From positions 1,240,001-1,304,000 of the forward strand of contig NZ_CP020946.1 in assembly GCF_002208115.1 (NCBI RefSeq): DNA of 64,000 nucleotides, given 5' to 3'. The translations under genes were made by a program, and so were the position numbers. Source of the stretch: Bdellovibrio bacteriovorus. GTDB taxonomy: Bacteria > Bdellovibrionota > Bdellovibrionia > Bdellovibrionales > Bdellovibrionaceae. The notes under the pieces were generated by a model. The model had not been told where the DNA came from, searched no databases, and saw only the letters and a list, made by a program, of their open reading frames with translations. Every line of letters starts with the position of its first letter. Positions within the stretch are counted from its first letter, which is position 1. This document shows positions 6,010 to 49,875 of this stretch, piece after piece.

Positions 6010-6423
6010 ATGTCTGAAGAGAAAAAGCCCTACGAATTGCTGGGTGGCGAACAAGTCCTGCGCCAACTTTGCAAAAGATTCTATGAAATCATGGACACCG
6101 TTCCGGAAGCCAAAGGCATCCGCGACATGCACCCGGGAAACCTGCAAGGATCCGAGGAAAAACTGTTTATGTTTTTGTCCGGGTGGCTGGGGGGACCGGG
6201 ATTGTTCGTTGAAAAGTACGGACACCCCAGACTGCGCATGCGCCATTTTCCATTCAAGATCGGAAAGTCCGAGCGCGATCAGTGGATGATGTGCATGGTG
6301 CAGGCTTTTGATGAGGTGAATATCGCCGAGCCGTTGCGCAGTGAACTTTTGCATTCACTGCTGCGTCTGGCGGATCACATGAGAAATGTCGAAGAACCAG
6401 AGTTTTCGGAAGGCGCGGATTAA
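6010..6423 (+). CDS. glbO: Truncated haemoglobin, group II (GlbO/TrHbO type)
   Basis: The 137-residue protein has the compact 2-on-2 globin layout. The pieces are an N-terminal YELLGGEQVLRQLCKRFYEIM helix (with the B10-type Tyr), FLSGWLGGPGLFVEKYGHPRLRMRHFPFKIG carrying the proximal His, and DQWMMCM with the G8 Trp typical of group II. Such proteins bind O2 or NO and often act in NO or peroxide defence, which would fit the NO-respiration genes elsewhere in the window. No Shine-Dalgarno is seen before the ATG. A possible TTGCCA/TAAGTT promoter 17 bases apart (5975-6003) would place the transcript start at or next to the ATG, so translation could be leaderless. Its stop overlaps the stop of the convergent esterase gene. 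Confidence 0.9.
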   Translation: MSEEKKPYELLGGEQVLRQLCKRFYEIMDTVPEAKGIRDMHPGNLQGSEEKLFMFLSGWLGGPGLFVEKYGHPRLRMRHFPFKIGKSERDQWMMCMVQAFDEVNIAEPLRSELLHSLLRLADHMRNVEEPEFSEGAD

Positions 6424-7403
6424 AGTCCGCGCACGCGTTCAATCATCTTCATCAACGCGGACATCTGGGCGCCGGATTTGCTGACGTAATCAGGACCGGT
6501 GAAACCAAACCAGTCCCAGCACGCATAAGGATTACCGCGATTGTCGCGGGCTGACTGCGGATAAAGCACAACGATGTTATTGGTTTCAGCCCAGTCGTTG
6601 TAGCCAGCCAAAGTCGCAAACTTGTCTTGAATAAAATCCGGATTCATCTGGCAGCCATGCAAGGCCACGTGCAGTTTGCAGCGGGCGCCTTGTTCACAAG
6701 CCTCGGGAACATAGATCCATCCATCGCGATATAACGGAGTTTTGCTGTCGCCAAAATCAGTCTGCGTGAACTTGTGCAGGTTTTCCGCCACTGCAATTCC
6801 CCGTGCTTTCAAATCGGTATACATCTGCGCAAGAATGTCGCCGGCCGTATCAAAATTGCATTTCAAAAGCCATGGCAATGCCGCCATCGTACAGGGCCCT
6901 CCACTGGCCAGAGTCGGGAAGCCGTGAGCAGCTTCTGGAGTCGTCACACGGTGAATTTGATTTTTTGGAACGAAGCTTTCATAAAACTCAATCAGCTTGT
7001 CACTGTTACCCAGCTTCACCACGGAATCTTTGGGGCTTGCGAAAATATAGATGCGGTGGTCTTTGAGGTTTTCGAGGGAATCAATGTCACCTTGGCCTGA
7101 CAAGTCGCGGGCTTTTTCAATCATCAGGCGGCTGTCGATTTTTTCGGGGCTTCCCATGCACTGGGACTGGGCTTTCTTGGAATCTCCTTCAGAGCACCAG
7201 TAGACACCCCCGGCAACGGCACCCGCTCCGGAAAAGACCGACGAGAAGGCCACATCCATTTGCACCGCCATAAAGCCGCCGGAGGATACTCCGGAGATGG
7301 TGATGCTGTGGGGATCAATGTTGTAAGCTTTTAAGTTCTCGGTGGCGGGATCAGAAGACTGAATGCAAAAGGGCACAAGCATTGCGCATAATGTTTCAAA
7401 CAT
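6420..7403 (-). CDS. PHB depolymerase-family esterase
   Basis: The 327-residue alpha/beta-hydrolase carries the nucleophile motif GVSSG (Ser about residue 40) followed by GFMAVQM, as in extracellular polyhydroxybutyrate depolymerase/feruloyl-esterase-like enzymes. A late block, LHVALHGCQMN, is also characteristic of that family. Catalytic Asp and His are expected near SPKDSVV and the AAHGFPT segment. The start is supported by an excellent AGGAGG five bases from the ATG. The N-terminus is hydrophobic but lacks positive charges, so export is uncertain. Substrate is not determinable: prey PHB, short-chain esters or lipids are all possible. The gene converges on the haemoglobin gene with a three-base stop overlap. 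Confidence 0.82.
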   Translation of the reverse strand: MFETLCAMLVPFCIQSSDPATENLKAYNIDPHSITISGVSSGGFMAVQMDVAFSSVFSGAGAVAGGVYWCSEGDSKKAQSQCMGSPEKIDSRLMIEKARDLSGQGDIDSLENLKDHRIYIFASPKDSVVKLGNSDKLIEFYESFVPKNQIHRVTTPEAAHGFPTLASGGPCTMAALPWLLKCNFDTAGDILAQMYTDLKARGIAVAENLHKFTQTDFGDSKTPLYRDGWIYVPEACEQGARCKLHVALHGCQMNPDFIQDKFATLAGYNDWAETNNIVVLYPQSARDNRGNPYACWDWFGFTGPDYVSKSGAQMSALMKMIERVRGL

Positions 7404-7517: not shown

Positions 7518-9278
7518 CTAAGCCTCTACTTGTAAGGGTATGAAGCTGAAATTTGTGACGTTCACCAAGCCACGATCGGTGAGCTTCAAGGTTGGAATCA
7601 CCGGCAAAGCCAGGAAAGCCATTTGGATAAACGGTTCATCTAAATGGACTCCCAAGGATCGGAAGGCGGTTTTAAGGTCTGCGATGCCGTCTTTGATTTC
7701 TTCCGCGCTCTGAAGGCTCAAAAGACCCGCGATTGGCAGTTCCACCAAAGCTTTGATTTCACCCTGATCAGCCACAGCAAAGCCGCCGCCAGATTTGATT
7801 AATGTGTTCACGGCCAAAATCATGTCCGCCGGGTTGGTCCCGATGACCATGATGTTGTGAGAATCATGCGCCACAGAGCTGGCTAGAGCGCCGCTTTTTA
7901 GCCCCATGCCTTTTACAAGGCCCAACGCCGGAGGCAAACCTTTGCCATAGCGTTCGATGTTGGCCATGTAAAGTACGTCACTTTCAGCAAACTTTTGGCC
8001 GTCAAAAGCCACGGTCAGATGTTGGGTGATGATTTCGTGAGGCACGATTTCAATCACGTTGTAAACACCCGGAAGCAGATTCACGGTCAGTTCTTTTTCT
8101 GTCAATGGCGCTCGCTTCATGGTGTTTTCAAGAGGCGGTTGCGAGGTCTGCAGTTTTTCCTGCAATGAATCCTGAAGTTTTAATTCAGAAACAAACTTCC
8201 CACCGATCATCACTTCCTGAATATCGACAGCTTTCAGATCCTTCAAGAAAACCAGATCGGCTTTCTTGCCCGGAGCCACCAGCCCCAGACGTTTCAAACC
8301 AAAGTGGCGGGCGGCGGAATAAGTCGCCAGACGGTACGCCACATGCACAGCCACGCCGTGTTTGTTGATCAGTTCTTTGATCAGATAGTTGATATGACCT
8401 TCGTGTGCAATTTCAAAAGGATTGCGATCATCGGTGCACAGCAAGCACTGCGGGGACGAAAACTCATTCACCAGCGGAGCCAGGGTGCGCAGGTTCTTGG
8501 CAACACTTCCTTCGCGAATGATCAGACCCATGCCTTTTTGCAGCTTTTCGCGGCCTTCTTCCAAAGTCACGGTTTCGTGGCAGTTTTGAATTCCCGCCAG
8601 CAGGTAAGCATTCAAGGCTTTGCCGCGCAAAAGGGGCGCATGGCCGTCCATGTTCAGATCATCAAAGGCCTCAATTTTTGCCAGGACTTCTTTGTCGGCG
8701 TGAATCACGCCGGGGAAGTTCATCATTTCAGCCAGACCCAAAACGGAAGGGTGATCCTTGAAGGACTTCATTTCTTCCAATGGGAAATCACTGCCGGTGG
8801 TTTCAAAACCAGGAAGGGCCGGAACACAGGAGGACATCTGCACAAAAAGATTCTGGTGCATCAGTTCAGAAGAACGCAAGAACCAGCTAAAACCCCGGCC
8901 ACCCAGAACGTTGGTGATTTCGTGCGGATCACAGATGGCCGTAGTGGTTCCCAGCGGCAACGTCGCTTTTTCAAATTCAAAAGGCGACATCATAGAAGAT
9001 TCAATGTGCAAATGACCGTCGATAAAGCCCGGGGTCACGAAGGCCCCTTGGGCGTTCCAAGTGCGACGAGCGGACTGGGTTTGATACTCCATCCCCACGC
9101 CGACGATGTGTTCACCACCGATGGCAATGCAGGTGGGATAGATGTCGCCCGTGATCACATCCAGCATCTGCACATTCGTGATCAGCAGATCCAAGGTGCC
9201 ATCGCCCCGTGCTTGGGACAGACGGGCTGGCAGCAGGTCGGAGGCGATCTTTTGGGTTTTCTTGTTGCTTAAACTCAT
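7518..9278 (-). CDS. ade: Adenine deaminase
   Basis: This amidohydrolase-superfamily enzyme (586 residues, the usual Ade length) deaminates adenine to hypoxanthine and ammonia. The metal-binding HxH is in GFIDGHLHIESSMM near residue 90, followed by GTTTAICDPHEITNVLG and the C-terminal signature HDSHNIMVIGTN, all typical of Ade rather than of adenosine deaminase. It is the last gene of a four-gene operon; its start overlaps the xdhC stop by four bases, indicating translational coupling. The pairing with xanthine dehydrogenase suggests complete routing of adenine to xanthine/urate, sensible for a bacterium that digests host nucleic acids. Confidence 0.93.
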   Translation of the reverse strand: MSLSNKKTQKIASDLLPARLSQARGDGTLDLLITNVQMLDVITGDIYPTCIAIGGEHIVGVGMEYQTQSARRTWNAQGAFVTPGFIDGHLHIESSMMSPFEFEKATLPLGTTTAICDPHEITNVLGGRGFSWFLRSSELMHQNLFVQMSSCVPALPGFETTGSDFPLEEMKSFKDHPSVLGLAEMMNFPGVIHADKEVLAKIEAFDDLNMDGHAPLLRGKALNAYLLAGIQNCHETVTLEEGREKLQKGMGLIIREGSVAKNLRTLAPLVNEFSSPQCLLCTDDRNPFEIAHEGHINYLIKELINKHGVAVHVAYRLATYSAARHFGLKRLGLVAPGKKADLVFLKDLKAVDIQEVMIGGKFVSELKLQDSLQEKLQTSQPPLENTMKRAPLTEKELTVNLLPGVYNVIEIVPHEIITQHLTVAFDGQKFAESDVLYMANIERYGKGLPPALGLVKGMGLKSGALASSVAHDSHNIMVIGTNPADMILAVNTLIKSGGGFAVADQGEIKALVELPIAGLLSLQSAEEIKDGIADLKTAFRSLGVHLDEPFIQMAFLALPVIPTLKLTDRGLVNVTNFSFIPLQVEA

Positions 9279-10066
9279 AGAACCAAATCCCTTGTTTTAA
9301 GAATCTGCGCCACAATACTGAAGGCGATTTCCACCGGCGCGTTGGTGCCAAAGCTTTCTCCCATAGGGCAGTGGAATTTGTCGAGTGACTCTTGAGCAAT
9401 GCCGGCATCGATCAAGTCCTGGCGCAGGCGGCGCGCTTTTTGGTCGCTGCCGATGTTACCCACATAAGCGAAGCGATCGCGCTGTTTCATGACTTCCACC
9501 AAAATAGGCAGGTCAGTGCCATGGCCCATGGTCATCAAAGTCACAAAGGACTTTTCCGGAATGCGGGAAACCAGGCCCTTCATGTCCTCGGTGCAAATTG
9601 TGGTCAGACGACTGGAGGTCGGAAGTTTATCGATCCATTCCTGGCGCGGATCCACGCACGTGATCTTGCAATCCAGCCGCATCAACAGGCGCACCAGTTC
9701 CTGGGCAATGTGGCCGGCACCGAACACCCAGATGTTGAACGGGTGGTTGTATTCAAAGAATTCAAAGAAGAAGCTGACCACACCACCGCAGGTCATGCCG
9801 ATATCTTTTTGCAGATTCCAGTCGGCGTAGTGATGATGGATCTTTTCGCGGATCATTTTCTGGGCTTCTTCAATGGCGCGTTTTTCAACTTTGCCACCGC
9901 CAACAGTCCCGTACTCCAATCCGTCGGCCGACACGAGCGCCCGAGCGCCCACATCCTGGGGCGAGGATCCTTGTTGTTTTACCAGTGTCACGCTGACAAA
10001 GGATTTTCCCGCGTCCTGCAGGGACTTCATCGCGGACAGATAGTCTTCAAAGTTCATTTTACTCAT
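9275..10066 (-). CDS. xdhC: XdhC-family molybdenum cofactor insertion factor
   Basis: The 263-residue protein has the two XdhC/CoxI segments. The N-terminal one includes GSSPQDVGARALVSADG..GTVGGGKVEKRAIEEA and TCGG; the C-terminal Rossmann-like one starts at WVFGAGHIAQELVRLL. Proteins of this family bind and sulfurate the molybdenum cofactor and hand it to xanthine dehydrogenase; they are not part of the final enzyme. The gene overlaps xdhB by eight bases and ade by four, so its synthesis is coupled to both. Confidence 0.92.
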   Translation of the reverse strand: MSKMNFEDYLSAMKSLQDAGKSFVSVTLVKQQGSSPQDVGARALVSADGLEYGTVGGGKVEKRAIEEAQKMIREKIHHHYADWNLQKDIGMTCGGVVSFFFEFFEYNHPFNIWVFGAGHIAQELVRLLMRLDCKITCVDPRQEWIDKLPTSSRLTTICTEDMKGLVSRIPEKSFVTLMTMGHGTDLPILVEVMKQRDRFAYVGNIGSDQKARRLRQDLIDAGIAQESLDKFHCPMGESFGTNAPVEIAFSIVAQILKTRDLVL

Positions 10067-12386
10067 GACGGGCGATCTCCATCAGCATCTCTTCCGGGGT
10101 GGCCGGGGATTTCAGGGTCGAAATCAAACCTTTGCTTTTGGCATTGGCGGCGTCTTTCAAAGCAGTCCATACGCTGATTCCCAATAAGAACGGCGGTTCC
10201 CCCACGGCTTTGGAGCGGTGGACGTTTTCGCGGTTCTCGTGGTTTTCAATGAACTCGACATTAAACACCCTTGGCGTGTCTTGCACGTTCGGGATCTTGT
10301 AAGTGGTTGGGGAGTGGCTTAAAAGTTTTCCCTCTTTGTTGTGGAAAAGTTTTTCAGAAGTCACCCAGCCCATGCCTTGCACGAACGCACCCGTGACTTG
10401 GCCCTTGTCGATGCCCGGATTGATTCGGCGGCCCAGGTCCATCAGGATGTCGGTGCGAAGGACTTTGTATTCACCTGTGAACAGATCCACCTGCACTTCA
10501 CTGACGGCAACACCGTTGGTGAAATACTTAAACGGCGTCCCTTGGCTGGTCTTTTTGTCAAAACCAAGGCCCTCGGTTTTAAAGTGAGCGTACTCTCCCA
10601 AAGAAAGACGGTTGAAGTAAGCCTGTTTAACAGCGTCAAGCCAGGTCATGGATTTACTGGAAGGTTTGTGGGTCAGAAGTCCGTTTTCAAAATGGAATTC
10701 TTCAAACTTCAATTTGGATTCGTCCAAAGGCGGGCATTCGGCGATATCATTCATCGGCGTGCCAGCCAGGATGTTTTGGAACAACCATGCCAGACGTTTT
10801 TGAATCCCGACAGCTGCTTTTAAAGCCGCCGCACAGTTGATGTCAGATCCGCTGGAGGCCGCCGTAGGTGACGTGTTGTGGTTTTTCTCGGTCGAGGTTG
10901 CCATAACTTTGACGTCGTGGGCTGGAATACCAAAGGCGTGAGCCACGACCTGCTGGATCTTGGTGTTCACACCCTGACCCATTTCGGTGGCGCCGGTGGA
11001 AACCTGCACGGTGCCGTCTTTGTGAACGTTCACCGAAGCATTCCCTTGATTCAGGAAGCGTGCGGTGAAGGCGATACCGAACTTGGTTGCTGTCATGGAT
11101 AAGCCACGCACCGCGGTTTTGCTGCTGGCATTGAAAGCGTCGATTTCTTGACGGCGCTTTTCATAGTCGGAAGACTTTTTAAGATCCGCAAAAAGTTCTG
11201 GCAGGGGATTGTGTCCCAGCGCCTGACCATAGTGGGTCACGTTGTTGTGATCTTTTTGATAACAATTCAGTTCGCGGATGGCGAGGGCATCTTTTTTCAG
11301 ATGCAGGGCCATGTCCTCGATAATGCTTTCGATGGTCATGGTCCCTTGCGGACCCCCGAAACCACGGAAAGCGGTGTTGGAATAAAGATTGGTGCGAACC
11401 ACGGCACCTTCGATGTGCGCGGCGGGCAGATAGTACGCGCCATCAACGTGGAACATGGCTCGATCCAGGATCGAGCTTGAAAGATCGGCGTAAGCACCCC
11501 CGTCGGCATAAAGATGCGCCTTCAAGGAAAGAATGCGGCCGTCGTTATCAAAGCCCACTTCGTAATAGTTTTTAAACGGGTGGCGTTTTCCCGTCATCAT
11601 CATGTCGTCGTCTTTCGACAAACACAAACGAGCCGGGCGTTTCATTTTGCTTGCGACCAGAGCTGCCATCGCCGCAAATGGGGCGGCCTGACTTTCTTTG
11701 CCGCCAAAGCCGCCACCCATGCGTTTTACAATACAGACGACTTCATGCAGGCTTAAGCCCAAAGCTTCGGCCACCACGTGCTGGGTTTCAGTCGGGTGCT
11801 GGGAACTGGCGTGAACTTCGATCTGTCCGTCTTCCATCGGGTAGGCGATGCAGGCGTTGGATTCTAAATAGAAATGCTCCTGACCGCCGCACTCAAAGGC
11901 GCCTTTAAGGCGGTGTGGGGCTTTGGCCATTGCGGCGTCGGCATCGCCGACTTTGAAGGCGTTGGCTTTATAGATGAAACGATCCAGTTTAATGGCTTCA
12001 TCGATGGTGAAGATGCCATTTTCTTTTTCAATTTCAAATTGCACGTGTTTTTTTGCGCGCAACAGATCTTCGATGTCGGTGCCGACCAACAGCACCGCCG
12101 GTTCGTCATAGTGGCCGATCTTGTCGGCAACCAGAATAGGCTGTTCCGGAACAATGGTGCCCCAGGAGTTGTGGGAAAGATCTTTGGCCGTGAAAGCGGC
12201 CAAAACTCCACGGCACTTCAGGGCTTGGGAATAATCAATAGACTTCAGGCGGCCGGCGGCCGCGGGAACACCCACTGGCAGCACCAAGACTTCGCCCGCC
12301 ATCATCGGGCGGTCGTCGATAAACACACTGCCACCAGTGACGTGGCCCCGGGAAGAATCATGAGGGATGTTTTGACCTACGGACAT
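10059..12386 (-). CDS. xdhB: Xanthine dehydrogenase, molybdenum-binding subunit
   Basis: At 775 residues this matches the bacterial XdhB large subunit. It has the FRGFGGPQ motif lining the cofactor pocket, GGGFGGKE near the middle of the first half, and KAVGEPPFLLG near the C-terminus, whose Glu is the catalytic base of xanthine oxidising enzymes. It oxidises hypoxanthine and xanthine at the Mo centre and passes electrons to the iron-sulfur and FAD centres on XdhA. The gene overlaps xdhA by ten bases. Confidence 0.94.
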   Translation of the reverse strand: MSVGQNIPHDSSRGHVTGGSVFIDDRPMMAGEVLVLPVGVPAAAGRLKSIDYSQALKCRGVLAAFTAKDLSHNSWGTIVPEQPILVADKIGHYDEPAVLLVGTDIEDLLRAKKHVQFEIEKENGIFTIDEAIKLDRFIYKANAFKVGDADAAMAKAPHRLKGAFECGGQEHFYLESNACIAYPMEDGQIEVHASSQHPTETQHVVAEALGLSLHEVVCIVKRMGGGFGGKESQAAPFAAMAALVASKMKRPARLCLSKDDDMMMTGKRHPFKNYYEVGFDNDGRILSLKAHLYADGGAYADLSSSILDRAMFHVDGAYYLPAAHIEGAVVRTNLYSNTAFRGFGGPQGTMTIESIIEDMALHLKKDALAIRELNCYQKDHNNVTHYGQALGHNPLPELFADLKKSSDYEKRRQEIDAFNASSKTAVRGLSMTATKFGIAFTARFLNQGNASVNVHKDGTVQVSTGATEMGQGVNTKIQQVVAHAFGIPAHDVKVMATSTEKNHNTSPTAASSGSDINCAAALKAAVGIQKRLAWLFQNILAGTPMNDIAECPPLDESKLKFEEFHFENGLLTHKPSSKSMTWLDAVKQAYFNRLSLGEYAHFKTEGLGFDKKTSQGTPFKYFTNGVAVSEVQVDLFTGEYKVLRTDILMDLGRRINPGIDKGQVTGAFVQGMGWVTSEKLFHNKEGKLLSHSPTTYKIPNVQDTPRVFNVEFIENHENRENVHRSKAVGEPPFLLGISVWTALKDAANAKSKGLISTLKSPATPEEMLMEIARHE

Positions 12387-13840
12387 GCTGTCATTTCCTG
12401 TTGAAGTTCAATATGGCATTTCTTGAATAAATTCTCGGCGACTTTCAGACGGTATTCATCCGTGGCGCGAAGATCGGAAATAGGCTTGATCAAGGTGCGA
12501 ACCTTTTCACCCATTCGTATAAAGGTGTCTTCGCTGAAAGGCTGACCCTTCATTGCGGATTCAATGTCACTTAAACGAACCACGGTCGGGCCGACACCGC
12601 CCATGGCGATGCGGGCGTCACTGATGGTATTGCCATCGACTTTTACCAAAGCGGCAAAGGTCACCGCAGAAATATCCAGATCCTTACGCAGGGATACTTT
12701 AAAGAACTTGGACTTCCATTCAGGTCCGGGCACCGGGATCAGGATGCCTGTGGCAATTTCATCCGCAGTCACGTCAAAGACCTTGTAGGCTTTATAAAAC
12801 TTTGGCAAAGCCACTTTGCGAAGACCCTTGGTGGATTGCAAATGAACTTCCGCATCCAATGCCAAAAGAGCAGGGATGCTGTCACCAATCGGGGAGCCGT
12901 TCATGACGTTACCGACCAGAGTGCCTTGATTTTTGATTTGCGGTGAAGCGAAGATGCGCAGCAGGCGGGAAAGCTCTGGCAGTTTGTCTTCCAGGAAGTT
13001 TTCCAGGGCTGTCAGGGTGACGCGGGCTCCGACCCACACGCCGTCAGCGGTCATTTTGATTTCATTGGTGTCGGTGATCTTGTGCAAGCTCATCACGTCA
13101 TCCATGAAGGCTTTGCCTTTGTTGTGCAAAACGCCCAAATCAGTGGCACCGGCCACCAGACGAGTTTGTGGGGATTTGGATTTTTGCTCGGTCGCCACCT
13201 GGAAGTTCGCCGGGGCGGTGAATTTCTTGGCGCCAGCTTCAATCATCAAAGAATCAGAAGCCAGTGGCTGGAATTGTTTTTTCTGACTGTCCGTCAAGTA
13301 CTTGGCGGAAAGGGACTTCCATTTTGACAGATCCAGATTTGTCGCAGCCGCCAGGATCGGTTCATAGCCCGTGCAACGGCACAGGTTCCCGGTCAGGAAG
13401 TTGCGGGCTTTTTTCTCGGTGATGGCTTTGCCAGAGCAGGCACTTTTTTCTGCCAATGATGACAGCGAACACACCATGCCGGGCGTGCAGTAGCCGCACT
13501 GACCACCGTGGAATTCGCGCATCTTGTTTTGCACTTCGCTTAAGTCTTCCTGTTCGGAAAGTCCTTCCACCGTGACCAGTGATCCCATGTCGAAAAGGTA
13601 CATCGGGGCGATGCAGGAATTGATGGCTTGGAATTCAGACCAGGTGTTGTTTTCAAGTTTTGCCGAAAGCACCGTGCAGGCACCGCAGTCGCCTTCAGCG
13701 CACACCACTTTCGTTCCCGGAAGGGAGCTGTGATAGCGTAAATACTGGGCTAGCGGAAGAAAGGCTTTTTCGCCGGAAATGCGGTGTTCAGCGCCGTTGA
13801 TAAAGACATGAATTTCGTTGCGAATTTTGTTTTCAGACAT
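12377..13840 (-). CDS. xdhA: Xanthine dehydrogenase, iron-sulfur and FAD subunit
   Basis: This 487-residue subunit carries two [2Fe-2S] domains at the N-terminus: the plant-ferredoxin type (CAEGDCGACTVL) and the helical type (CGYCTPGMV and CRCTGYEPI). A CO-dehydrogenase-type FAD domain follows (VAGATDLGVL and NGSPIGDSIPALLALDAEV). It receives electrons from XdhB and reduces NAD+. It is the first gene of the xdhABC-ade operon. The 179 bases upstream hold the promoter and a GC-rich inverted repeat around 13906-13973, with no recognisable operator. Confidence 0.94.
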   Translation of the reverse strand: MSENKIRNEIHVFINGAEHRISGEKAFLPLAQYLRYHSSLPGTKVVCAEGDCGACTVLSAKLENNTWSEFQAINSCIAPMYLFDMGSLVTVEGLSEQEDLSEVQNKMREFHGGQCGYCTPGMVCSLSSLAEKSACSGKAITEKKARNFLTGNLCRCTGYEPILAAATNLDLSKWKSLSAKYLTDSQKKQFQPLASDSLMIEAGAKKFTAPANFQVATEQKSKSPQTRLVAGATDLGVLHNKGKAFMDDVMSLHKITDTNEIKMTADGVWVGARVTLTALENFLEDKLPELSRLLRIFASPQIKNQGTLVGNVMNGSPIGDSIPALLALDAEVHLQSTKGLRKVALPKFYKAYKVFDVTADEIATGILIPVPGPEWKSKFFKVSLRKDLDISAVTFAALVKVDGNTISDARIAMGGVGPTVVRLSDIESAMKGQPFSEDTFIRMGEKVRTLIKPISDLRATDEYRLKVAENLFKKCHIELQQEMTACP

Positions 13841-15006: not shown

Positions 15007-15426
15007 CTATTTGGATACAAATGGATTAGCTGCAACTGGTTCATATTTTGAAATGTGTGACCAGACTTTGGCACCAGGTTGCATTAGCCCGTAGCTTGAA
15101 GCAACGATTGTTTGAGCAGTAAAGTCAAAAATGGGGCTAAAGCGCGATTTTGAATTCGGATCGCGAAGACCTGAGTTCAAAAGAATTAGTTCCTCTTTGG
15201 CTACTTTCCCTTGGTCAAGAAACCAGTTTTAACGTTCAAAGGTTGTTTCATTCTTATTTTTTGCCTTGTATCCCGCGTTGTTGATTCTCATCAATTCTGT
15301 ACTTTGAAGAGATTTTCCGTTGTTGTATTCCATTTCGTAGTTGGCTGGGACGGCGCTCGGAACTGGTGATGAACCCAAGTAAACTCCATATCGATTTCTG
15401 GGTCTTAAAAGGTCAATAAACTGGAG
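15007..15426 (-). pseudogene. Decayed gene, possibly lytic-transglycosylase-like
   Basis: On the minus strand one frame is open for about 139 codons from 15426 to a TAG at 15007-15009, except for a single TAA at 15229-15231. An earlier in-frame TAA lies at 15427-15429. The two halves read as a normal protein (FIDLLRPRNRYGVYLGSS upstream; PIFDFTAQTIVASSYGLMQ downstream) with no start codon at a sensible place. The ASSYGLMQ block weakly resembles the core of SLT-type transglycosylases, but this is only a suggestion. With the 90 bases to 15516, in which nothing else is seen, this explains the longest gene-free stretch of the window. Confidence 0.6.
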
Positions 15427-24623: not shown

Positions 24624-26156
24624 TTAGCTGGCTTTCGGGCGTCCGTTAAGAACGCCTTCCACGGATTCCACCATCATATCGAGCTGCTGGGACTGACTGG
24701 ACAGCTCCACCGAGGCCGCCGCGGTTTCTTCAGAAGAGGCGGCGTTGTTCTGGGTCACTTTGTCCAGATCGTGCAGAGCGCGCGAGATCTGGTCGATACC
24801 TGTCGACTGCTCCTGACTGGCCTGGGCAATTTCATTGTTTAAAGTCGAAACTTTTTGTGACTCTTGCACAATTGTCTGCAAAGTTTCACCGCCTTGCAGA
24901 GCGGATTTGTAACTGACGTCGATCTGGCTGACACTTTCAGAAATCAAACCTGATATTTCCTTCGCGGATTGGGCGGATTTCAGTGCCAACTGGCGCACGG
25001 CTTCGGCAACAACCGAGAAACCTCGTCCATTTTCACCGGCGCGGGCGGCTTCCACGGCAGCATTCAGGGCCAGCAGATTTGTCTGAAAGGCAATATCGTC
25101 AATCAGACCGGTGATCTCCTGCACCTTTTTCGCCGTGACCGAAACGGTTTGCATTGAAGTGATCAGTTCCTGCATGTTTTGTTCGCCCCGCACCGCCGCC
25201 TCCATGGCAGAAGTGGACAGCAGTCGGGCATTCTGGGCATTGTCAGAATTCATTTTCACCATGCTGGTCAGTTCTTCGATGGAAGCGGATGTTTCCTCCA
25301 GGGCCGCAGCCGCTTCTGTGGCCGATGTGCTGAGGCCTTGTGAAGCATTGGATATCTCAGAACTTGTGGCGGAAAGGTGCTGGCTGGAGTTTCTGATGCT
25401 GTTGACGGCGGTGCGCAGGTTTTCCAGCGGCTTGCGCAGGACAACCCACGCGAAAAGAACGCTCAGAATAAGTCCGAAGAAAGAAAAAAGAAGGATCTTC
25501 TTCACTGAAGCCTGGCTGGCGGCATTGGTGGTGGCCAGGCTGCTGGTGATGGCAAAGACTCCGTGAAGTTTTCCATCCGACCAGTTTTCCATGTCATGTC
25601 CCAGCACATCTTTCCCATTGCCAAAAGGGCTTTGAGACGGCTGGCCGTGACATATTAAGCAGCCTTGTTTTTCAGACAGCCGTACTGGGCGATAGACGAT
25701 GACTGATTCATCGCTGGTGGTGACGATTTCCTTCAGGGTCGGTTCATTGAGAAAGCGATTGTAGATCTGCATTTCATCAGTTCGAGCCAGGTTTTCCTCC
25801 CGGCGAGGCTCTGGAGAAAAGACCCTGAACTTATAACCACTGCGCTCGGACTGCTCCTGACCCACTTTGATCGAAGCGAAAATCGGAACCCGTCGCAGAA
25901 TGTTCATCTTTAAATCCTTCGGGACATTTCCATCAGGATAGCGACTGCCAATATCATTGATAAATTCAGCAAGCCCTCCTTGGGAGGCGACGTAATCGCG
26001 CGTGCCCTCCAGTTGATCCAGGATGGCCCGGCTCTTGTCGATCAGGTCTTTTTCGCCCTGATCGTGGACCTCGGATCGCGAGACCTGGGTGGCGGCAATA
26101 ACTGAGACAACAGCGGCCAGGGAAACAATGGCGGTAATTTTTGTGATCAGCTTCAA
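24624..26156 (-). CDS. Chemoreceptor with periplasmic c-type haem (DUF3365/Tll0287-like) sensor
   Basis: The start is a TTG ending at 26156, chosen for a GGGAGG six bases upstream and because it begins just before a membrane segment ([16 protein letters not shown]). The periplasmic domain (about 25-230) contains CLICH at 166-170, a covalent haem-c motif, in the context [18 protein letters not shown] typical of DUF3365-type sensors. After a second membrane segment the cytoplasmic part is a long methyl-accepting signalling coiled coil with the hairpin tip [22 protein letters not shown]. No HAMP domain is obvious. It should report O2, NO or redox state to CheA. A dyad for an FNR-type activator lies 52 bases upstream. 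Confidence 0.9.
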
Positions 26157-26207
26157 GCACAACCTCCCGTGCCCTATCAGTGTAAGATGGGCCGGGGGAG
26201 AGTAATG

Positions 26208-26221
26208 ATGATGCAGATCAT
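26208..26221 (-). promoter_or_regulatory. FNR/DNR-type box for the haem chemoreceptor
   Basis: ATGAT-GCAG-ATCAT is a perfect five-base dyad with the four-base spacing of FNR-family sites. With a class II layout the -10 element would fall at TACACT (26179-26184, minus strand), four of six matches to TATAAT and one base from the ideal position. Confidence 0.6.
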
Positions 26222-26243
26222 AAAATAAATTATTATTCATTGG

Positions 26244-26264
26244 GATGTTTCAGACTGAAACATC
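26244..26264. repeat. 10-1-10 inverted repeat
   Basis: GATGTTTCAG is followed after one base by its exact complement. It directly abuts the stop codon of the ZIP gene and lies upstream of the chemoreceptor. With a one-base loop a hairpin is unlikely in RNA and there is no T-run, so a dimeric regulator site is the likelier reading. Confidence 0.55.
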
Positions 26265-38748: not shown

Positions 38749-38762
38749 TTGATCCTTGTCAA
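38749..38762. promoter_or_regulatory. Middle FNR/DNR-type box
   Basis: TTGAT-CCTT-GTCAA differs from the consensus dyad by one base in the second arm. It is about 133 bases upstream of the predicted nirK start site and could be an upstream accessory site. Confidence 0.5.
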
Positions 38763-38907: not shown

Positions 38908-40323
38908 ATGAAAGACTGGAACTACAAAAGACTACTGCTAACTGGAGCGATCGCCTGCCTGGCTCCCATGCCGGTCCTGGCTGACAATATCAAGGGTGAA
39001 GAGGTGGCGGTGCTGACTGATGCACCTGAAGTGCCACCGCCAATCACTCGCAAACATGCAACCAAGGTCATCGTAAACCTTGAAACCAAGGAAGTGAAGC
39101 TCCGCCTGGCCGATGGGGTGGACTATACTTTCTGGACTTTCGGGGGCAAGGTTCCCGGTAAATTCATCCGTATCCGTGAAGGGGATCAGGTGGAGTTCCA
39201 TCTGCACAATCACCCTTCCAGCAAGCTGCCTCATAATATCGACTTGCACGCTGTGACTGGACAGGGTGGTGGTGCGGAGGGATCCTTCACTGCTCCCGGT
39301 CACAGCTCCACTTTCAGTTTCAAGGCACTGAATCCGGGGCTGTATGTGTATCACTGTGCAACTGCGCCGGTGGGCATGCATATCGCCAACGGGATGTATG
39401 GTCTGATTCTGGTTGAACCCAAAGAAGGTCTGCCTAAAGTGGACCGTGAATTCTATGTGTTGCAGAGTGAGTTCTATACTAAGGGTAAATATGGAGCTCC
39501 GGGTTTGCAGCCGTTCAGCATGACTAAAGCGGTCGAGGAAAAAGCCGACTATGTGGTCTTTAACGGTAGCGTCGGGTCTTTGGTGGGCGATAACGCCATG
39601 AAAGCCAAAACTGGTGAAAAGGTCCGCTTGTTTGTGGGTAACGGGGGGCCGAATCTGGTGTCCTCTTTCCACGTGATTGGTGAGATCTTTGACAAGGTCT
39701 ATGTTGAAGGTGGCAAGCTGGTGAATGAAAACGTCCAGACTACTTTGATTCCGGCGGGTGGATCTGCCATTGTGGAATTCAAACTGGATACTACAGGCAC
39801 TTTCATTCTGGTGGATCACTCGATCTTCCGTGCCTTCAATAAAGGCGCCATCGGGATGCTGAAAGTGGAAGGCAAAGAAGACCATGAAGTCTATTCCGGA
39901 AAAACCAAAGACGGTATCTATCTGCCTGAGGGTGGTGTGATCCAGGAAATTGGTGCGGAAGCTCCGAAACAGATCCCAGCCAAAACTCTGGAAGAACGAC
40001 TGTCTGGCGGTAAACGTATCTATGAATCCTCTTGCTTTGCCTGTCACCAGAGCAATGGTCAGGGGCTGCCGGGTGCGTTCCCTCCACTGGCGAAGTCGGA
40101 CTTCCTGAAAAACAAGGATAAGGCGATTTCTGCGGTGATTCACGGTCTTGAGGGCCCGATCAAGGTCAACGGCAAAGAGTACAACTCAGTGATGCCGGCG
40201 CAGATTCTGTCGGATGAAGATGCTGCGAACGTACTGACTTACATCTACAGCATGTGGGGCAACTCCAAAAAAGTTGTGACTCCGGCTGATGTCAAAGCAG
40301 TTCGGGCTGCGGGTAAAAAGTAA
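38908..40323 (+). CDS. nirK: Copper nitrite reductase with C-terminal cytochrome c domain
   Basis: A signal peptide ([17 protein letters not shown]) precedes two cupredoxin domains. Type 1 copper ligands lie in NIDLHAVTG and [13 protein letters not shown]; type 2 His lie in NIDLHAV, VYHC and SSFHVIGE. An extra domain after residue 355 has CFACH at 376-380 and an axial Met region (NSVMPAQ), so nitrite reduction to NO and its electron feed are on one polypeptide of 471 residues. AAGGAG precedes the ATG. It heads the nirK-nirV-sco operon. Confidence 0.93.
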
Positions 40324-41094: not shown

Positions 41095-41697
41095 ATGAAA
41101 CTTTCAAAAGTTCACTTTGTGGCGATAGCTTTTTTGATGGCGGGCCCGGTTCAGGCAGGGGATCATGATCATCACCATCATCAAGCCGCACCCGCAGCGG
41201 AAAAATCAAAACCGCTGCATGATGAATCCATTTACAATCTGAATTCCTCTTTGCTGGACGAAGACGGAAAAGTCTTTCAACTGGAAAAGTACCGTGGCAA
41301 GCCTGTGGTCATCTCCATGGCTTACACCAGCTGTGTTTATACTTGCCCACTGATCCTGGCGCAAATGCAGCAACTGGAAAAAGCCCTGGCCGAACAGGGT
41401 AAGAAAGATGTGCGCTTTGTGCTGGTCAGCTTTGATCCGGCCAAGGACACTCCGAAGGTTCTGAAGGACTATGCGAAGAAAAAGAAACTGAGCACACAGT
41501 GGAATCTGCTGACATCCAAGTCTGACAAAGAACCCCGCGAAATCGCCAGCGTTCTGGGCATCAAATACAGCAAAGTCGAAGGCGGTGACTATGACCACTC
41601 CTTTATTATTACTGTGCTGGATGCTGAAGGTGTACCACGCGGCCGCCAAGTCGGCGCGGCAGGAAACCCAAAAGACCTGATAAAGTTCATCCCTTGA
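41095..41697 (+). CDS. SCO1/SenC-family copper chaperone
   Basis: After a signal peptide and a His-rich stretch (DHDHHHHQ) comes a thioredoxin-fold domain with the Cu-binding CXXXC in AYTSCVYTCPLI and the distal His in YDHSFIITVLD. SCO proteins deliver copper to oxidases and, in some bacteria, to nitrite or nitrous oxide reductase. Here it follows nirK-nirV by 12 bases with GAGGAG upstream, so NirK is a likely client. Its stop codon lies inside the next promoter's FNR-type box. Confidence 0.92.
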   Translation: MKLSKVHFVAIAFLMAGPVQAGDHDHHHHQAAPAAEKSKPLHDESIYNLNSSLLDEDGKVFQLEKYRGKPVVISMAYTSCVYTCPLILAQMQQLEKALAEQGKKDVRFVLVSFDPAKDTPKVLKDYAKKKKLSTQWNLLTSKSDKEPREIASVLGIKYSKVEGGDYDHSFIITVLDAEGVPRGRQVGAAGNPKDLIKFIP

Positions 41698-41707
41698 TTT
41701 GAATCAA
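41694..41707 (+). promoter_or_regulatory. Consensus FNR box overlapping the sco stop codon
   Basis: TTGAT-TTGA-ATCAA matches the FNR/DNR consensus arms exactly. Class II spacing predicts a -10 at 41730-41735, where TAAAGT (four of six) occurs, with transcription from about 41742 and the DUF2249 ATG 20 bases on. The sco TGA is part of the first arm. Confidence 0.7.
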
Positions 41708-41761: not shown

Positions 41762-42019
41762 ATGAAAGAGTTCGTAATCGAGGCACAAAAGATCGAGCCT
41801 ATGCACAGACATTCCTATATTTTTGAAAGCTTTGATAATCTGGAGGGCGGTGACAGCCTGGTGATCGTGAACAACCATGATCCACTGCCACTGCTTCGCC
41901 AGTTCGGGGAATCCCGCCCCAACCAGTTTGTCGACGAGTATCTGGAAAAAGGTCCGAACGTTTGGAAACTGCGCCTGACCAAAAAGAAAAAAGAAGGCTG
42001 CTGCGGATTCTGCGAGTAG
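41762..42019 (+). CDS. DUF2249-domain protein with C-terminal Cys motif
   Basis: This 85-residue protein has the DUF2249 pattern (FESFDNLEGGDSLVIVNNHDPLPLLRQF...VWKLRL) and ends in KKKKEGCCGFCE, a possible metal or redox site added to the domain. DUF2249 genes are commonly found with NO-reductase, hemerythrin and NO-responsive Crp/Fnr genes, as here, but have no proven activity. It has its own FNR-type promoter and AAGGAGG. Confidence 0.85.
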   Translation: MKEFVIEAQKIEPMHRHSYIFESFDNLEGGDSLVIVNNHDPLPLLRQFGESRPNQFVDEYLEKGPNVWKLRLTKKKKEGCCGFCE

Positions 42020-42062: not shown

Positions 42063-42577
42063 TACGCCAGCAGTTTCTCACATAACACGAACAGACATCC
42101 ATCCTCTTTCGCAATATGCCGGCGCAACAGCTGTTCATAGTCGGACTTTAAAGCTTCCAAAGCCCCGGGATATTTTTCCCGCATTTCGGGTTTTAATAAA
42201 ATTTTAATGGCCTCGGCCAGGTGATGACCCAGTTCATGTTCATCCATGGGCAGGCTGAGCGGGTTCTGCGCGTTCAGCCATTCGAACGACGGATAGGCTG
42301 AGGCCTGGGGCAGGCCCTGTTCATGCAGCAGCTTCAGGCGTCGACGAGGTTCGCTTTGCGGGGCCAGATCCAGCTCCATGCCCCGGAAGTAGGTGCACAG
42401 CGGTCCGCCCTGGCTGAGCAGGGGGTGCGCTGCGATTTTCGGAAACAGCTCCTGTTCCTCCAAGGGGTGATGAACCGCCTCCACAAAATGCAGGATCTCC
42501 AGGATCGGTGCTTTTTGCTCAAACATTTTCAAGATGGTCTGATGCTCCTCGCGAAGCTTTCTTAGAAGGTCGTTCAC
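42062..42577 (-). CDS. Hemerythrin-like (HHE) domain protein
   Basis: The 171-residue four-helix protein has the di-iron His/Glu pattern: REEHQTILKMFE, AVHHPLEEQELFPK, DEHELGHHL and RRHIAKEDGCLF. Such proteins bind O2, NO or iron and often serve in NO defence or iron-sulfur repair (RIC/YtfE-like). The start is GTG at 42577 supported by GGAGG; it lies 59 bases inside the 3' end of the upstream Crp/Fnr gene, so the two are made from one transcript. Confidence 0.85.
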   Translation of the reverse strand: MNDLLRKLREEHQTILKMFEQKAPILEILHFVEAVHHPLEEQELFPKIAAHPLLSQGGPLCTYFRGMELDLAPQSEPRRRLKLLHEQGLPQASAYPSFEWLNAQNPLSLPMDEHELGHHLAEAIKILLKPEMREKYPGALEALKSDYEQLLRRHIAKEDGCLFVLCEKLLA

Positions 42578-43247
42578 TTTCCACCTCCATCAACGCCTGT
42601 CGGTTTAAAATTTCAATATGCCTGTCGGTTGTTTGAATCCAGCCGTTCTTGGTCCACTGGCTCAGGATACGAATCACGGTTTCACTCTGGCTGCCGATCC
42701 GTTCGGCAATATCATTTCGGGTCAGCGGGATGTTGATATAACCGCTTTGTGATCCCTGCCGAGCCAGCAGGCGCAGCAGAAAGTCCGCCACCCGGTGGGG
42801 CGCCAGTTTATGGGACTTGCAGATGTCGTTCTGGAACTCCAGAAAACGCTCGGAGATCTGGCGGTTCACACGCCGGCGCAGTTCCGGGATCTGCATCAGA
42901 TGATCAAAGAACAACCCCACCGGTATTTTCAGTAAAGTGCTGTCCTCGTTACAGACGGCGGAAGTCGGATAGCGGGGGTTCGGAAGTCCGGCCATGGCTA
43001 CGCCCAGGAACTCACCCTGACTGAGGAAGTTGAATATTTTCACTGCATCCCGGTCAATGGACTCCTGAATCTTAAAAGACCCGTACAGCACCAGATAGAT
43101 GTGTTCGATCGGCTGGCCTTTTTCAAACAACGTGTCCCGCTGAGTGCAGTGTATAAGCTCGAAATAGGGTGCGATCTCGCGCAATTCCTTTTCGGTGAAC
43201 TGGCGAAGAAAATCCTGTTTTTTAAGTACGCTGATCTTGTCTGACAT
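42519..43247 (-). CDS. Crp/Fnr-family regulator divergent from norC
   Basis: About 242 residues form a cyclic-nucleotide-like sensor domain (TLFEKGQPIEHIYLVLYGSFKIQES), a dimer helix and a winged HTH (RNDIAERIGSQSETVIRILSQWTKNGWI). The recognition helix keeps the Glu and Arg of FNR's E-x-x-S-R but has Ile for Ser. No N-terminal Cys cluster is seen, so it resembles DNR/NnrR-type regulators, which may sense NO through haem. The start at 43247 has GAGG five bases upstream. An FNR-type box lies 44 bases upstream, suggesting autoregulation. Confidence 0.88.
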   Translation of the reverse strand: MSDKISVLKKQDFLRQFTEKELREIAPYFELIHCTQRDTLFEKGQPIEHIYLVLYGSFKIQESIDRDAVKIFNFLSQGEFLGVAMAGLPNPRYPTSAVCNEDSTLLKIPVGLFFDHLMQIPELRRRVNRQISERFLEFQNDICKSHKLAPHRVADFLLRLLARQGSQSGYINIPLTRNDIAERIGSQSETVIRILSQWTKNGWIQTTDRHIEILNRQALMEVESERPSKKASRGASDHLENV

Positions 43248-43290
43248 AAGGTCCTCTTGCACAGAATGCCAAGACTTTAAGGGCCAAAAC

Positions 43291-43304
43291 ATGATCCGGA
43301 TCAA
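43291..43304 (-). promoter_or_regulatory. FNR/DNR-type box of the divergent crp gene
   Basis: ATGAT-CCGG-ATCAA has both arms of the consensus with one base changed. Its class II -10 on the minus strand would be CATTCT (43263-43268; three of six). Confidence 0.6.
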
Positions 43305-43335
43305 CTCTGGGATTTTTATCATTTAGTGATCATTC

Positions 43336-43349
43336 TTGATCTGGATCAA
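43336..43349 (+). promoter_or_regulatory. Consensus FNR/DNR box of the nor operon
   Basis: TTGAT-CTGG-ATCAA is a perfect consensus site 61 bases before the norC ATG and 45 bases from the box of the divergent gene. The expected -10 region (43371-43378) is T-rich but not a clear hexamer. Confidence 0.72.
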
Positions 43350-43409
43350 AGATTGGCGGGCGGGTGCAGTGTTATTTCTTCTGAAAAATGCCCACAGCAC
43401 AGGAGCAAC

Positions 43410-44093
43410 ATGTTAACCAAATCACAGGCAAAGAAGTTTTTTGTAGTGGGAACGGTTCTTTGCTCAGCGGCCTTCGTGTTGCTGACCATAGACACCTTCC
43501 GCCGGATTCCCAAACAGACCAATCAGATCGAAATGACCGACGCAGTTGTGCGCGGTAAACATCTTTTCGATCGCAACAACTGCATGGGGTGTCACACCAT
43601 CCTGGGAGAGGGCGCGTATTACGCGCCGGAGTTGACCAAAGTGTGGGAACGGCGCGGAGAGATCTTTATCAAATCCATGCTGCGCGACCCGCAGGCCATG
43701 TATCCCAATGACCGCAAGATGACCAACTATCACTTCACCGAAGAAGAGATCAATGATCTGACGGCCTTCTTGAAATGGATCGGCACGATGGATTTGAATG
43801 GCTTCCCTCCGAAACCCGATCTGGCTCAGCCGGTCAGTGCCGCTGCCGTGCAGGCGACTGTGGCCCAGCCGCAGATTTACGGTCAGGTTTGCGTAGCCTG
43901 CCACACGATGAATGGCACTGGCGGCAACACCGGACCAACGCTGGATGGGATCGGCAGTCGTCGTGACGGTGAATACCTGACTCACTGGCTGAAAGATCCT
44001 GCGGCGGTGAAGGCGGATTCCAAGATGCCAAAACTGCCCCTGACAGACGAGCAGATCCAGGAACTTGTGACTTACCTGTCACAGATAAAATGA
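43410..44093 (+). CDS. norC: Nitric oxide reductase subunit C with a second cytochrome c domain
   Basis: The start at 43410 has AGGAG five bases upstream and opens the NorC membrane anchor (KKFFVVGTVLCSAAFVLLTIDTF). The normal NorC haem is CMGCH at 58-62 in a typical context (NNCMGCHTILGEGAYYAPEL). After residue 140 a second cytochrome c domain follows with CVACH at 161-165 and MPKLPLTDEQIQ. Ordinary NorC has about 150 residues and one haem; this one has 227 and two. The extra haem could accept electrons from another donor. Confidence 0.92.
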   Translation: MLTKSQAKKFFVVGTVLCSAAFVLLTIDTFRRIPKQTNQIEMTDAVVRGKHLFDRNNCMGCHTILGEGAYYAPELTKVWERRGEIFIKSMLRDPQAMYPNDRKMTNYHFTEEEINDLTAFLKWIGTMDLNGFPPKPDLAQPVSAAAVQATVAQPQIYGQVCVACHTMNGTGGNTGPTLDGIGSRRDGEYLTHWLKDPAAVKADSKMPKLPLTDEQIQELVTYLSQIK

Positions 44094-44100
44094 GGACATC

Positions 44101-45426
44101 ATGAAGTATCAAACACAAAAAATAGCGTACTGGTTTTTCGCCACCTGCATGCTGCTGTTTTCGCTGCAGCTGGTTTATGGATTCATCATGGGCTTTGCCC
44201 ATATGGGTTTCGATGGTTTGCATAACATCATTCCTTTCAATGCCGCGCGCGCCACGCACACGAATTTGCTGGTGGTGTGGCTGTTGACGGGCTTTATGGG
44301 GGCGGCCTACTACATCATTCCTGAAGAGGCGGACCGCGAACTGATTCACCCGAAGCTGGCGTATGTGCAGCTGGGGGCTTTGGTGGCCGTGGGTGTGGTT
44401 GCCATTATCGGTTTTCACATGAACTGGTGGGAGGGACGTAAGTTCCTGGAAATCCCACGTCCTTTGGACTATCTGGTGGTGGCCGATGTGCTGCTGTTTA
44501 TTTATCTGATCGGTGGCACGATCTGGAAGGGCAAACGCTACACCACAACAAGCATGGTTTTGTTCCTGGGCCTGTTGATGGCGGCACTGCTGTATCTGCC
44601 GGGCATGATCAACACGGATCACCAGACGCTGGATTCTTACTGGCGCTGGTGGGTGGTGCATCTGTGGGTGGAAGGTGTGTGGGAGCTGATCATGGGGGCG
44701 ATCATGTCCTTCCTGCTGATCAAAATGACCGGCGTGGACCGGGAAGTTATCGAGAAATGGCTTTATATCATTGTCGGTTTCACCTTCCTGTCCGGGATTC
44801 TGGGAACCGGGCACCATTACTATTACATCGGTACACCCAGATACTGGCTGCTGGTGGGTGGTTTGTTCGGGGCTTTGGAGCCGCTGGCATTTTTGGGTTT
44901 TGCTATCTATGCCGTGGCCATGGCCCGCAAAGGCGGGAAAAATCCTGACAACAAAATGGCGATGGCCTGGACAATGGCAACCGCGATTCTTTCCTTTGTC
45001 GGTGCGGGCTTCCTGGGCTTTGCCCACACTCTGCCGCAGGTGAACCTGTACACGCATGGAACTCTGGTGACAGCGATGCACGGACATCTGGCATTTTGGG
45101 GAGCGTATGCCTGTCTGGTGCTGGCGCTGATCGCCTATGCGATGCCAAAACTGACCGGTCGGAACTTGCAGGATTCCCGTATGAATGTGTTCGCTTTCTG
45201 GACCTCCAACATCGGCATGATTGCGATGACGCTGGCTTTTGGAGTGGCGGGGATCGCGCAGGTGTACCTGGAAAGAAAATTGGGCATGGATTTTTTGACC
45301 GTGCAAAAAGAGGTCGAAGTTCACTTCCTGGGACTGGTGCTGGCCGCATCGCTGTTTTCAGTGGGGATTGTTGCCTATGTCTGGAACTTCATCCGCTTCG
45401 GGAAACCTGCAGGTGAAGTCAAATGA
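44101..45426 (+). CDS. norB: Nitric oxide reductase subunit B
   Basis: The 441-residue, 12-helix protein belongs to the haem-copper oxidase superfamily and reduces two NO to N2O. His ligands of haem b, haem b3 and FeB are in ARATHTNLLVVWLL, VVHLWVEGVWELI, GTGHHYYYIG and TAMHGHLAFWG. The Glu residues in VEGVWE are those needed for NO chemistry. It is the short, cytochrome-c-dependent (cNor) form, not the quinol-oxidising fusion. GAGG precedes the ATG, seven bases after norC. Confidence 0.95.
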   Translation: MKYQTQKIAYWFFATCMLLFSLQLVYGFIMGFAHMGFDGLHNIIPFNAARATHTNLLVVWLLTGFMGAAYYIIPEEADRELIHPKLAYVQLGALVAVGVVAIIGFHMNWWEGRKFLEIPRPLDYLVVADVLLFIYLIGGTIWKGKRYTTTSMVLFLGLLMAALLYLPGMINTDHQTLDSYWRWWVVHLWVEGVWELIMGAIMSFLLIKMTGVDREVIEKWLYIIVGFTFLSGILGTGHHYYYIGTPRYWLLVGGLFGALEPLAFLGFAIYAVAMARKGGKNPDNKMAMAWTMATAILSFVGAGFLGFAHTLPQVNLYTHGTLVTAMHGHLAFWGAYACLVLALIAYAMPKLTGRNLQDSRMNVFAFWTSNIGMIAMTLAFGVAGIAQVYLERKLGMDFLTVQKEVEVHFLGLVLAASLFSVGIVAYVWNFIRFGKPAGEVK

Positions 45427-46193
45427 GTGTCTATTACCGGGAAGTCGCCAACGAAGTGGATCTGTTCACACGCTGTTATGAGCAGCAGCTGCCGCTGTTG
45501 ATCAAGGGACCCACCGGTTGTGGAAAAAGTCAGCTGGTCGCCCACATGGCCGAAAAACTGAAACGTCCTTTGGTGAAAGTGGCCTGCAATGAAGACACCA
45601 GCAGTGCTGACTTGCTGGGGCGCTTTCTGATCAAAGGCAATGAAACTGTGTGGCAGGATGGGCCGGTCACACGCGCCGTGCGTGAAGGGGCGATTTTATA
45701 TCTGGATGAAGTCGCCGAAGCCCGGGAAGACGTGATTGTGGCTTTGCATCCGCTGACGGATCACCGTCGCGAACTGTATGTGGATCGCACCAACGAAGAA
45801 CTGGTGGCGCCTGCCGGATTCATGTGTGTGGCCAGTTTCAATCCCGGCTACCAGCGGGGCTTTAAGGAATTAAAACCGTCCACTCGTCAAAGATTTGTCA
45901 CTTTAAGTCTGTCTTACCCAATGCCGGAATTGGAAACTGAAATTCTGCATCGGGTGACCGAGGTTGATCTGAAAACCTGTCAGCGTCTGGTTGAATTGGG
46001 GAATAAGATCCGCGGGCAGAGACACCTTGAGTTGAAAGAGACCGTGTCCACGCGCCTGCTGGTGCATGCGGCCCGTCTGTTCAAGTCCGGGATGTCTCTG
46101 CGCCAGGCTTGCTTGTTTGGTGTTGGTCAGTGCCTGTCTGATGACGTTCAGGTGCTGGAAGGCCTGAAGGATCTAATTCATTTGAGCATGTGA
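45423..46193 (+). CDS. norQ: AAA+ ATPase NorQ
   Basis: The 256-residue MoxR-class ATPase has Walker A GPTGCGKSQL, Walker B AILYLDEVAEA and sensor ASFNPGYQRG. With NorD it is needed to insert the non-haem iron FeB into NorB. It overlaps norB by four bases (ATGA). Confidence 0.94.
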   Translation: MSVYYREVANEVDLFTRCYEQQLPLLIKGPTGCGKSQLVAHMAEKLKRPLVKVACNEDTSSADLLGRFLIKGNETVWQDGPVTRAVREGAILYLDEVAEAREDVIVALHPLTDHRRELYVDRTNEELVAPAGFMCVASFNPGYQRGFKELKPSTRQRFVTLSLSYPMPELETEILHRVTEVDLKTCQRLVELGNKIRGQRHLELKETVSTRLLVHAARLFKSGMSLRQACLFGVGQCLSDDVQVLEGLKDLIHLSM

Positions 46194-46194
46194 T

Positions 46195-48024: not shown

Positions 48025-48079
48025 CCTGCCCCATGGTGCTGTAACATCCGTGTGGTCGAGTTGTTTTTTTCATCCCCCG

Positions 48080-48108
48080 GGGTAGATCAGAAAAACGTAA
48101 AGCTACCC
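48080..48108 (+). promoter_or_regulatory. Inverted repeat in the leader of the nor-linked chemoreceptor
   Basis: GGGTAG and CTACCC pair across a 17-base loop, 46 bases before the ATG, following a T-run. It could be a weak terminator of norD or a leader structure. Confidence 0.3.
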
Positions 48109-48153
48109 ATAAATCGGACCGACTTATTGCACGCACTAAAAACGGAGGAAGAG

Positions 48154-49861: not shown

Positions 49862-49875
49862 TTGATCCCGATCAT
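49862..49875 (+). promoter_or_regulatory. FNR/DNR-type box and promoter of nnrS
   Basis: TTGAT-CCCG-ATCAT is one base from consensus. Class II spacing points to 49898-49903, TAGTGT, which keeps the three most conserved -10 bases, with transcription from about 49910. Confidence 0.65.

Follow-up and report, generated by a model that had tools for sequence, protein, structure and literature searches.

The gene at positions 24624-26156 (minus strand) of the 64,000-nucleotide stretch of Bdellovibrio bacteriovorus DNA analysed here (the window) encodes a chemoreceptor which, with a probability of roughly 60%, we propose to be a haem-c NO chemoreceptor whose expression is coupled to that of the genes for NO reductase and denitrification through a DNR/NnrR-type regulator of the Crp/Fnr family. 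The receptor belongs to an already known family, and what is added here is the evidence on its regulon.

The receptor and its putative haem sensor domain

The open frame of the receptor extends over 24624-26240 of the minus strand, and its start was placed at the TTG at 26156, giving a protein of 510 amino acids. This TTG, just 5' of which lies a GGGAGG, corresponds to the start residue of two paralogues of the same genome, and a longer ATG-started product from 26240 was excluded by where the paralogues begin. Pfam analysis of the receptor revealed a Tll0287-like domain (PF11845, formerly DUF3365; E 2.8e-24, 86.6 bits against a curated cut-off of 24.1) and an MCPsignal domain (E 1e-44), and no other domain; HAMP, a linker common in the Geobacter and Pseudomonas relatives though not obligatory, gave no Pfam match even at E 10. 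The layout comprises TM1 (residues about 3-25), the sensor domain (33-204), TM2 (about 216-240) and the MCP signalling domain (314-468), the hydropathy peaks at either side of the sensor (1-27 and 216-244) indicating an extracytoplasmic, i.e. periplasmic, placement between two transmembrane segments. The MCP domain matched that of E. coli Tsr over 249 residues at equal length, and about 45 residues lie between TM2 and the first methylation-type helix.

The sensor (25545-26060, minus strand), identified by PF11845 as well as by its structure model (190 residues, pLDDT 95.7), has as its best solved match the haem-c protein Tll0287 (PDB 5B82; Foldseek E 2.3e-7; Z 15.5 over 152 residues), followed by the Cache domains of WalK, TlpQ, TlpB and CitA with Z up to 8.4. 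The c-type haem attachment motif CLICH (C166-L-I-C169-H170; 25647-25661, minus strand) forms an insertion of the Cache fold, namely a short helix between model strands 124-132 and 170-179, and from this motif we infer the covalent attachment of haem c to the receptor. The domain match and the motif are in agreement with the first-pass annotation, which had described a putative haem-c chemoreceptor with CLICH in a DUF3365-like periplasmic sensor. Homologues were retrieved by an alignment-based search, whereas a single-protein query search of the genome contigs found none. The CXXCH was invariant in 43 homologues from the genus and 46 wider homologues, as was M189, which could be an axial haem ligand, and H198 was near-invariant in the 43. 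As the only cysteines of the whole receptor, C166 and C169, both sit inside CLICH, Cys/His ligation as in Tll0287 is impossible. A conserved Met or Cys was also absent from the first sensor helix across the 43 homologues, this helix being marked by the signature DQLEG..D in the clade of the receptor and by SRLE in the other 35.

Several relatives of the receptor have been characterized. Tll0287, the best fold match, is a stand-alone, Cys/His-ligated protein, whereas the receptor offers no Cys for ligation. The domain has been named sCache_heme, and the signalling group of the family (Cluster 2) shares with the receptor a Cache fold with CXXCH insertion, two transmembrane segments, a fused output and the lack of a distal Cys (PMC12889525). 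A signalling-type member bound NO tightly, releasing it slowly, and gave no stable complex with O2, the members tested autoxidised, and the stand-alone members appear to be redox-related; this study is a single preprint with no in vivo test (PMC12889525). The NO-binding protein of that study, a HAMP-containing Cluster 2 member from Pseudomonas azotoformans, does not belong to the chemoreceptors, whereas the Bdellovibrio receptor is a HAMP-less MCP in a putative NO regulon. The Geobacter sulfurreducens proteins GSU0582 and GSU0935 (PDB 3B47 and 3B42) resemble the receptor in joining a periplasmic haem-c sensor to an MCP domain; their sensor domains bind NO and CO, and the interpretation given was one of redox sensing (-156 and -251 mV; PMC8396549). 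Unlike the receptor, both have HAMP, and GSU0935 also has a Met60 ligand. The sequence profile built in this analysis did not reach either protein, and the Foldseek match to GSU0935 was weak.

The dyad upstream of the receptor gene and its putative reader

An FNR/DNR-type dyad, ATGATGCAGATCAT (ATGATCTGCATCAT on the minus strand), is located at 26208-26221 and separated from the TTG by 51 bases. Such a box, about 52 bases 5' of the TTG start, had already been noticed in the first-pass annotation and was found to be kept in 8/8 orthologues; the end of the range assigned there to the receptor, 24624-26221, is the far edge of this dyad, the gene itself extending only to 26156. Compared with TTGAT-N4-ATCAA, the dyad matches at all eight core bases (TGAT/ATCA), the outer pair being A/T and not T/A. 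A -10-like TACACT (26179-26184, minus strand) is found 23 bp from the dyad, a spacing that is kept in the orthologues, and we propose a class-II site, with the dyad about 42 bp before the transcription start, which is predicted at about 26172-26173.

Seven exact WTGATN4ATCAW sites were detected in the window, compared with 0.47 in dinucleotide shuffles (0/100 shuffles reached seven) and with 47 in the whole genome, so that exact sites are about ninefold denser in the window than in the genome. The sites beyond the window mostly lie within reading frames, with qnor and the pseudoazurin gene as clear exceptions, and most of them look like chance occurrences. At the receptor itself, each of the eight orthologues has a dyad that matches at 5 to 8 of the 8 core bases and is followed, 22-23 bp on, by a -10-like element; two of these dyads are degenerate, with 5 and 6 matching core bases. 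Their summed dyad score was 40 versus 29.3 +/- 1.8 in shuffled sequences (0/2000 reached it), and they differed from 35 paralogues of the genus, which are without the dyad/-10 arrangement, with P 7e-5. A chance dyad is excluded by this conserved footprint, and so is a dyad owned by the upstream Zip gene, as orthologues located beside other genes still keep it. A near-perfect inverted repeat, GATGTTTCAGACTGAAACATC (26244-26264), directly 3' of the Zip stop, was also observed and may be either a terminator or a second regulator site; in G001 its arms are kept and its loop is changed.

Dyads resembling that of the receptor were found at norC, the adjacent regulator gene, nnrS, a DUF2249 gene, qnor, the pseudoazurin gene and probably nirK, and the spacing of 22-23 bp between dyad and -10 is common to the receptor, nnrS, DUF2249 and qnor. 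The copper nitrite reductase gene nirK, with a C-terminal cytochrome c domain fused (38908-40323, plus strand), has degenerate dyads upstream at 38749 and 38840 and starts 12.7 kb from the receptor, in line with the distance of over 12 kb from the denitrification genes given earlier. The other sites are TTGATTTGAATCAA (41694-41707, plus strand) 54 bp 5' of the DUF2249 gene (41762-42019); ATGATCCGGATCAA (43291-43304) and TTGATCTGGATCAA (43336-43349) between the regulator gene (42519-43322, minus strand) and norC, the first gene of the cytochrome-c type NO reductase operon norC-norB-norQ-norD (43326-48024, plus strand); and TTGATCCCGATCAT (49862-49875, plus strand) before nnrS (49940-51073), with a -10-like TAGTGT 22 bp on. 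A further exact dyad, TTGATTCTCATCAA at 15281-15294, has no clear gene start nearby. Another receptor (L199) has a dyad 164 bp upstream, which was dismissed because it sits within a small transporter gene.

The Crp/Fnr-family regulator encoded at 42519-43322, which is neighboured by a hemerythrin-like gene and whose true start is probably further in than the annotated ATG (MSDK...), is our proposed reader of the dyads. It resembles Pseudomonas DNR (3dkw), its best solved relative, and NnrR in lacking a conserved Cys and in flanking norC, but is distant from DNR (E 4.8e-12), and its response to NO is presumed. No Cys is conserved across its 14 orthologues, which are therefore without the iron-sulphur cysteines of FNR. 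Dyads flank the genes of these orthologues in 13 of the 14 genomes, a pair of them preceding the gene in most, and the DUF2249 gene likewise carries dyads in nearly all relatives. A second Crp/Fnr protein (54114-54815), encoded near an anaerobic ribonucleotide reductase in the window, is a candidate iron-sulphur FNR with Cys at 7, 16, 19 and 28. As FNR and DNR boxes are similar and the recognition helices of the two proteins almost the same (ETVIR), this cysteine-bearing protein could be an alternative reader of the receptor box, and if it were the main one, the dyads would mark a general low-oxygen regulon and not an NO-specific one. We regard this as rather improbable, since proteins of this kind occur genus-wide (at about 30% identity when 42519-43322 is the query), including in genomes that lack NO reductase and the receptor, whereas the receptor is found only alongside the 42519-43322 regulator. 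Reading of the receptor box by the DNR/NnrR-type regulator, which has no conserved cysteines, is the more likely alternative.

Distribution of the receptor across the genus

The genus was represented by 24 Bdellovibrio genomes, one per species, some of them drafts, in which absences carry less weight (e.g. G016 and G017); the rpoB species tree omits G009, which gave no rpoB match, and co-occurrence P values ignore descent unless stated. The 42519-43322 regulator has orthologues in the 14 genomes with an NO reductase of cytochrome-c or quinol type and in no others (naive Fisher P 5e-7). In the tree of the 43 sCache_heme receptors, the gene of the window fell within a clade of eight with a support of 100/100, and all eight genomes carrying this clade were among the 14 with NO reductase. 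Only one half of the rpoB tree contains the receptor, and in that half it occurs in 8/11 genomes with and 0/4 without NO reductase (P about 0.03, hand calculation). As it rests on some three or four independent absences, this co-occurrence is suggestive only, and the promoter evidence is the stronger of the two. Since 6 of the 14 genomes with NO reductase are without the receptor, the NO response can do without it.

The receptor genes occupy at least three different genomic places, with the dyad kept throughout. In G000 and G001 the receptor is flanked by Zip and gltS, two genes that stand side by side with no receptor between them in G004, G006, G019 and G021, and in G014 and G017 it is found beside a sugar-kinase-like gene. 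By this comparison the receptor gene has evidently been relocated, with the dyad moving along with it. Neither a dyad at this site nor any association with NO reductase was seen in the remaining sCache_heme clades of Bdellovibrio; by hand count, the L003 clade occurs in 10/14 genomes with NO reductase versus 7/10 of the rest, and the L001 clade in about 6/14 versus 4/10. An exact dyad, ATGATTTGCATCAT, was observed about 111 bp before the approximate start of a distant sCache_heme receptor (L020 in G015 and L021 in G013), one of these two genomes being without NO reductase.

Candidate signal, proposed mechanism and other receptors at nor loci

O2, NO or redox potential had been put forward as the signal in the first-pass annotation. 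Of these, NO is now favoured, because a signalling-type sCache_heme binds it tightly but gives no stable complex with O2 (PMC12889525), and also because the receptor is without a redox-type distal Cys and its promoter falls in the putative NO regulon; given the family, NO is the best prior for the ligand. An aerotaxis receptor for O2, as proposed for the c-haem chemoreceptor DcrA of Desulfovibrio, which is described as a sensor of redox potential and O2 (PMC8396549), would fit with an FNR-type site increasing the receptor at low O2. We nevertheless consider this very unlikely in view of the autoxidation and the lack of a stable O2 complex in the family members tested (PMC12889525), and of a regulator group that follows NO reductase exactly across the genus.

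Redox potential retains a somewhat larger, though still minor, share of the probability. A receptor for redox or energy taxis, in which the spin or ligand state of the haem follows the periplasmic redox potential, would owe its place in the NO regulon to low O2 and nitrite. GSU0582 and GSU0935, which share the domain type and the output, were taken for redox sensors (PMC8396549), the near-invariant M189 and H198 might act as redox-switched ligands, and an FNR-type box suits low O2 as well as NO. The missing distal Cys argues against such a receptor, the nearest biochemical test of the family draws a line between signalling forms that bind NO and stand-alone forms of redox type (PMC12889525), and the promoter is common to NO-consuming genes more than to other respiratory genes. 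Expression in the presence of NO and/or low O2 would fit better than the first-pass suggestion that the receptor is made only when respiration is limited.

According to the preferred reading, the periplasmic Cache domain would carry one covalent haem c with its iron held by His170, and NO, produced by the cell's own NirK or by denitrifying prey and neighbours, could bind the iron because there is no Cys on its other side. Bound NO would alter how the haem is coordinated and how the N-terminal helix is posed, and the signal would pass through TM2, directly and without a HAMP, to a signalling domain of the 36-heptad type, to CheA and to the flagellar motor, so that cells would navigate by NO, most probably moving away from damaging concentrations. 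The 42519-43322 regulator, acting at the proposed class-II site, would induce the receptor along with the genes for NO reductase and denitrification.

Other chemoreceptors are found at nor loci. The nor operon of the window ends in a second receptor directly 3' of norD (48052-49602, plus strand), which has a weak TarH-like sensor and no haem motif, and a receptor with a NIT domain (nitrate/nitrite sensing) is located beside norD in G014 and G021 and on the norC side in G023. This recurrence supports, but does not prove, an NO/nitrite taxis module. More tentatively, the module may be a dedicated one, in which the NO-reductase regulator also controls unrelated receptors (sCache_heme, TarH-like and NIT-domain) and NO removal and NO steering are co-induced in a predator of denitrifying prey. 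Our data suggest that NO, from such prey or from the predator's NirK, may serve it as a spatial cue; a search of titles and abstracts retrieved no publication on NO taxis in Bdellovibrio. In 2026, binding data alone led to the proposal that the sCache_heme domain senses NO in the periplasm (PMC12889525), and a receptor keeping an NO-removal promoter through several relocations constitutes independent genetic evidence for this assignment. With one match to a CheA-type dimerisation domain and 22 chemoreceptors over the cut-off in its genome, Bdellovibrio would be a clean organism for an in vivo test of NO.

Elsewhere in the window, genes for adenine deaminase and xanthine dehydrogenase (XdhA, XdhB and XdhC) at 7518-13840 adjoin a polyhydroxyalkanoate depolymerase gene (6420-7403), which points to purine and storage-polymer breakdown in a predator.
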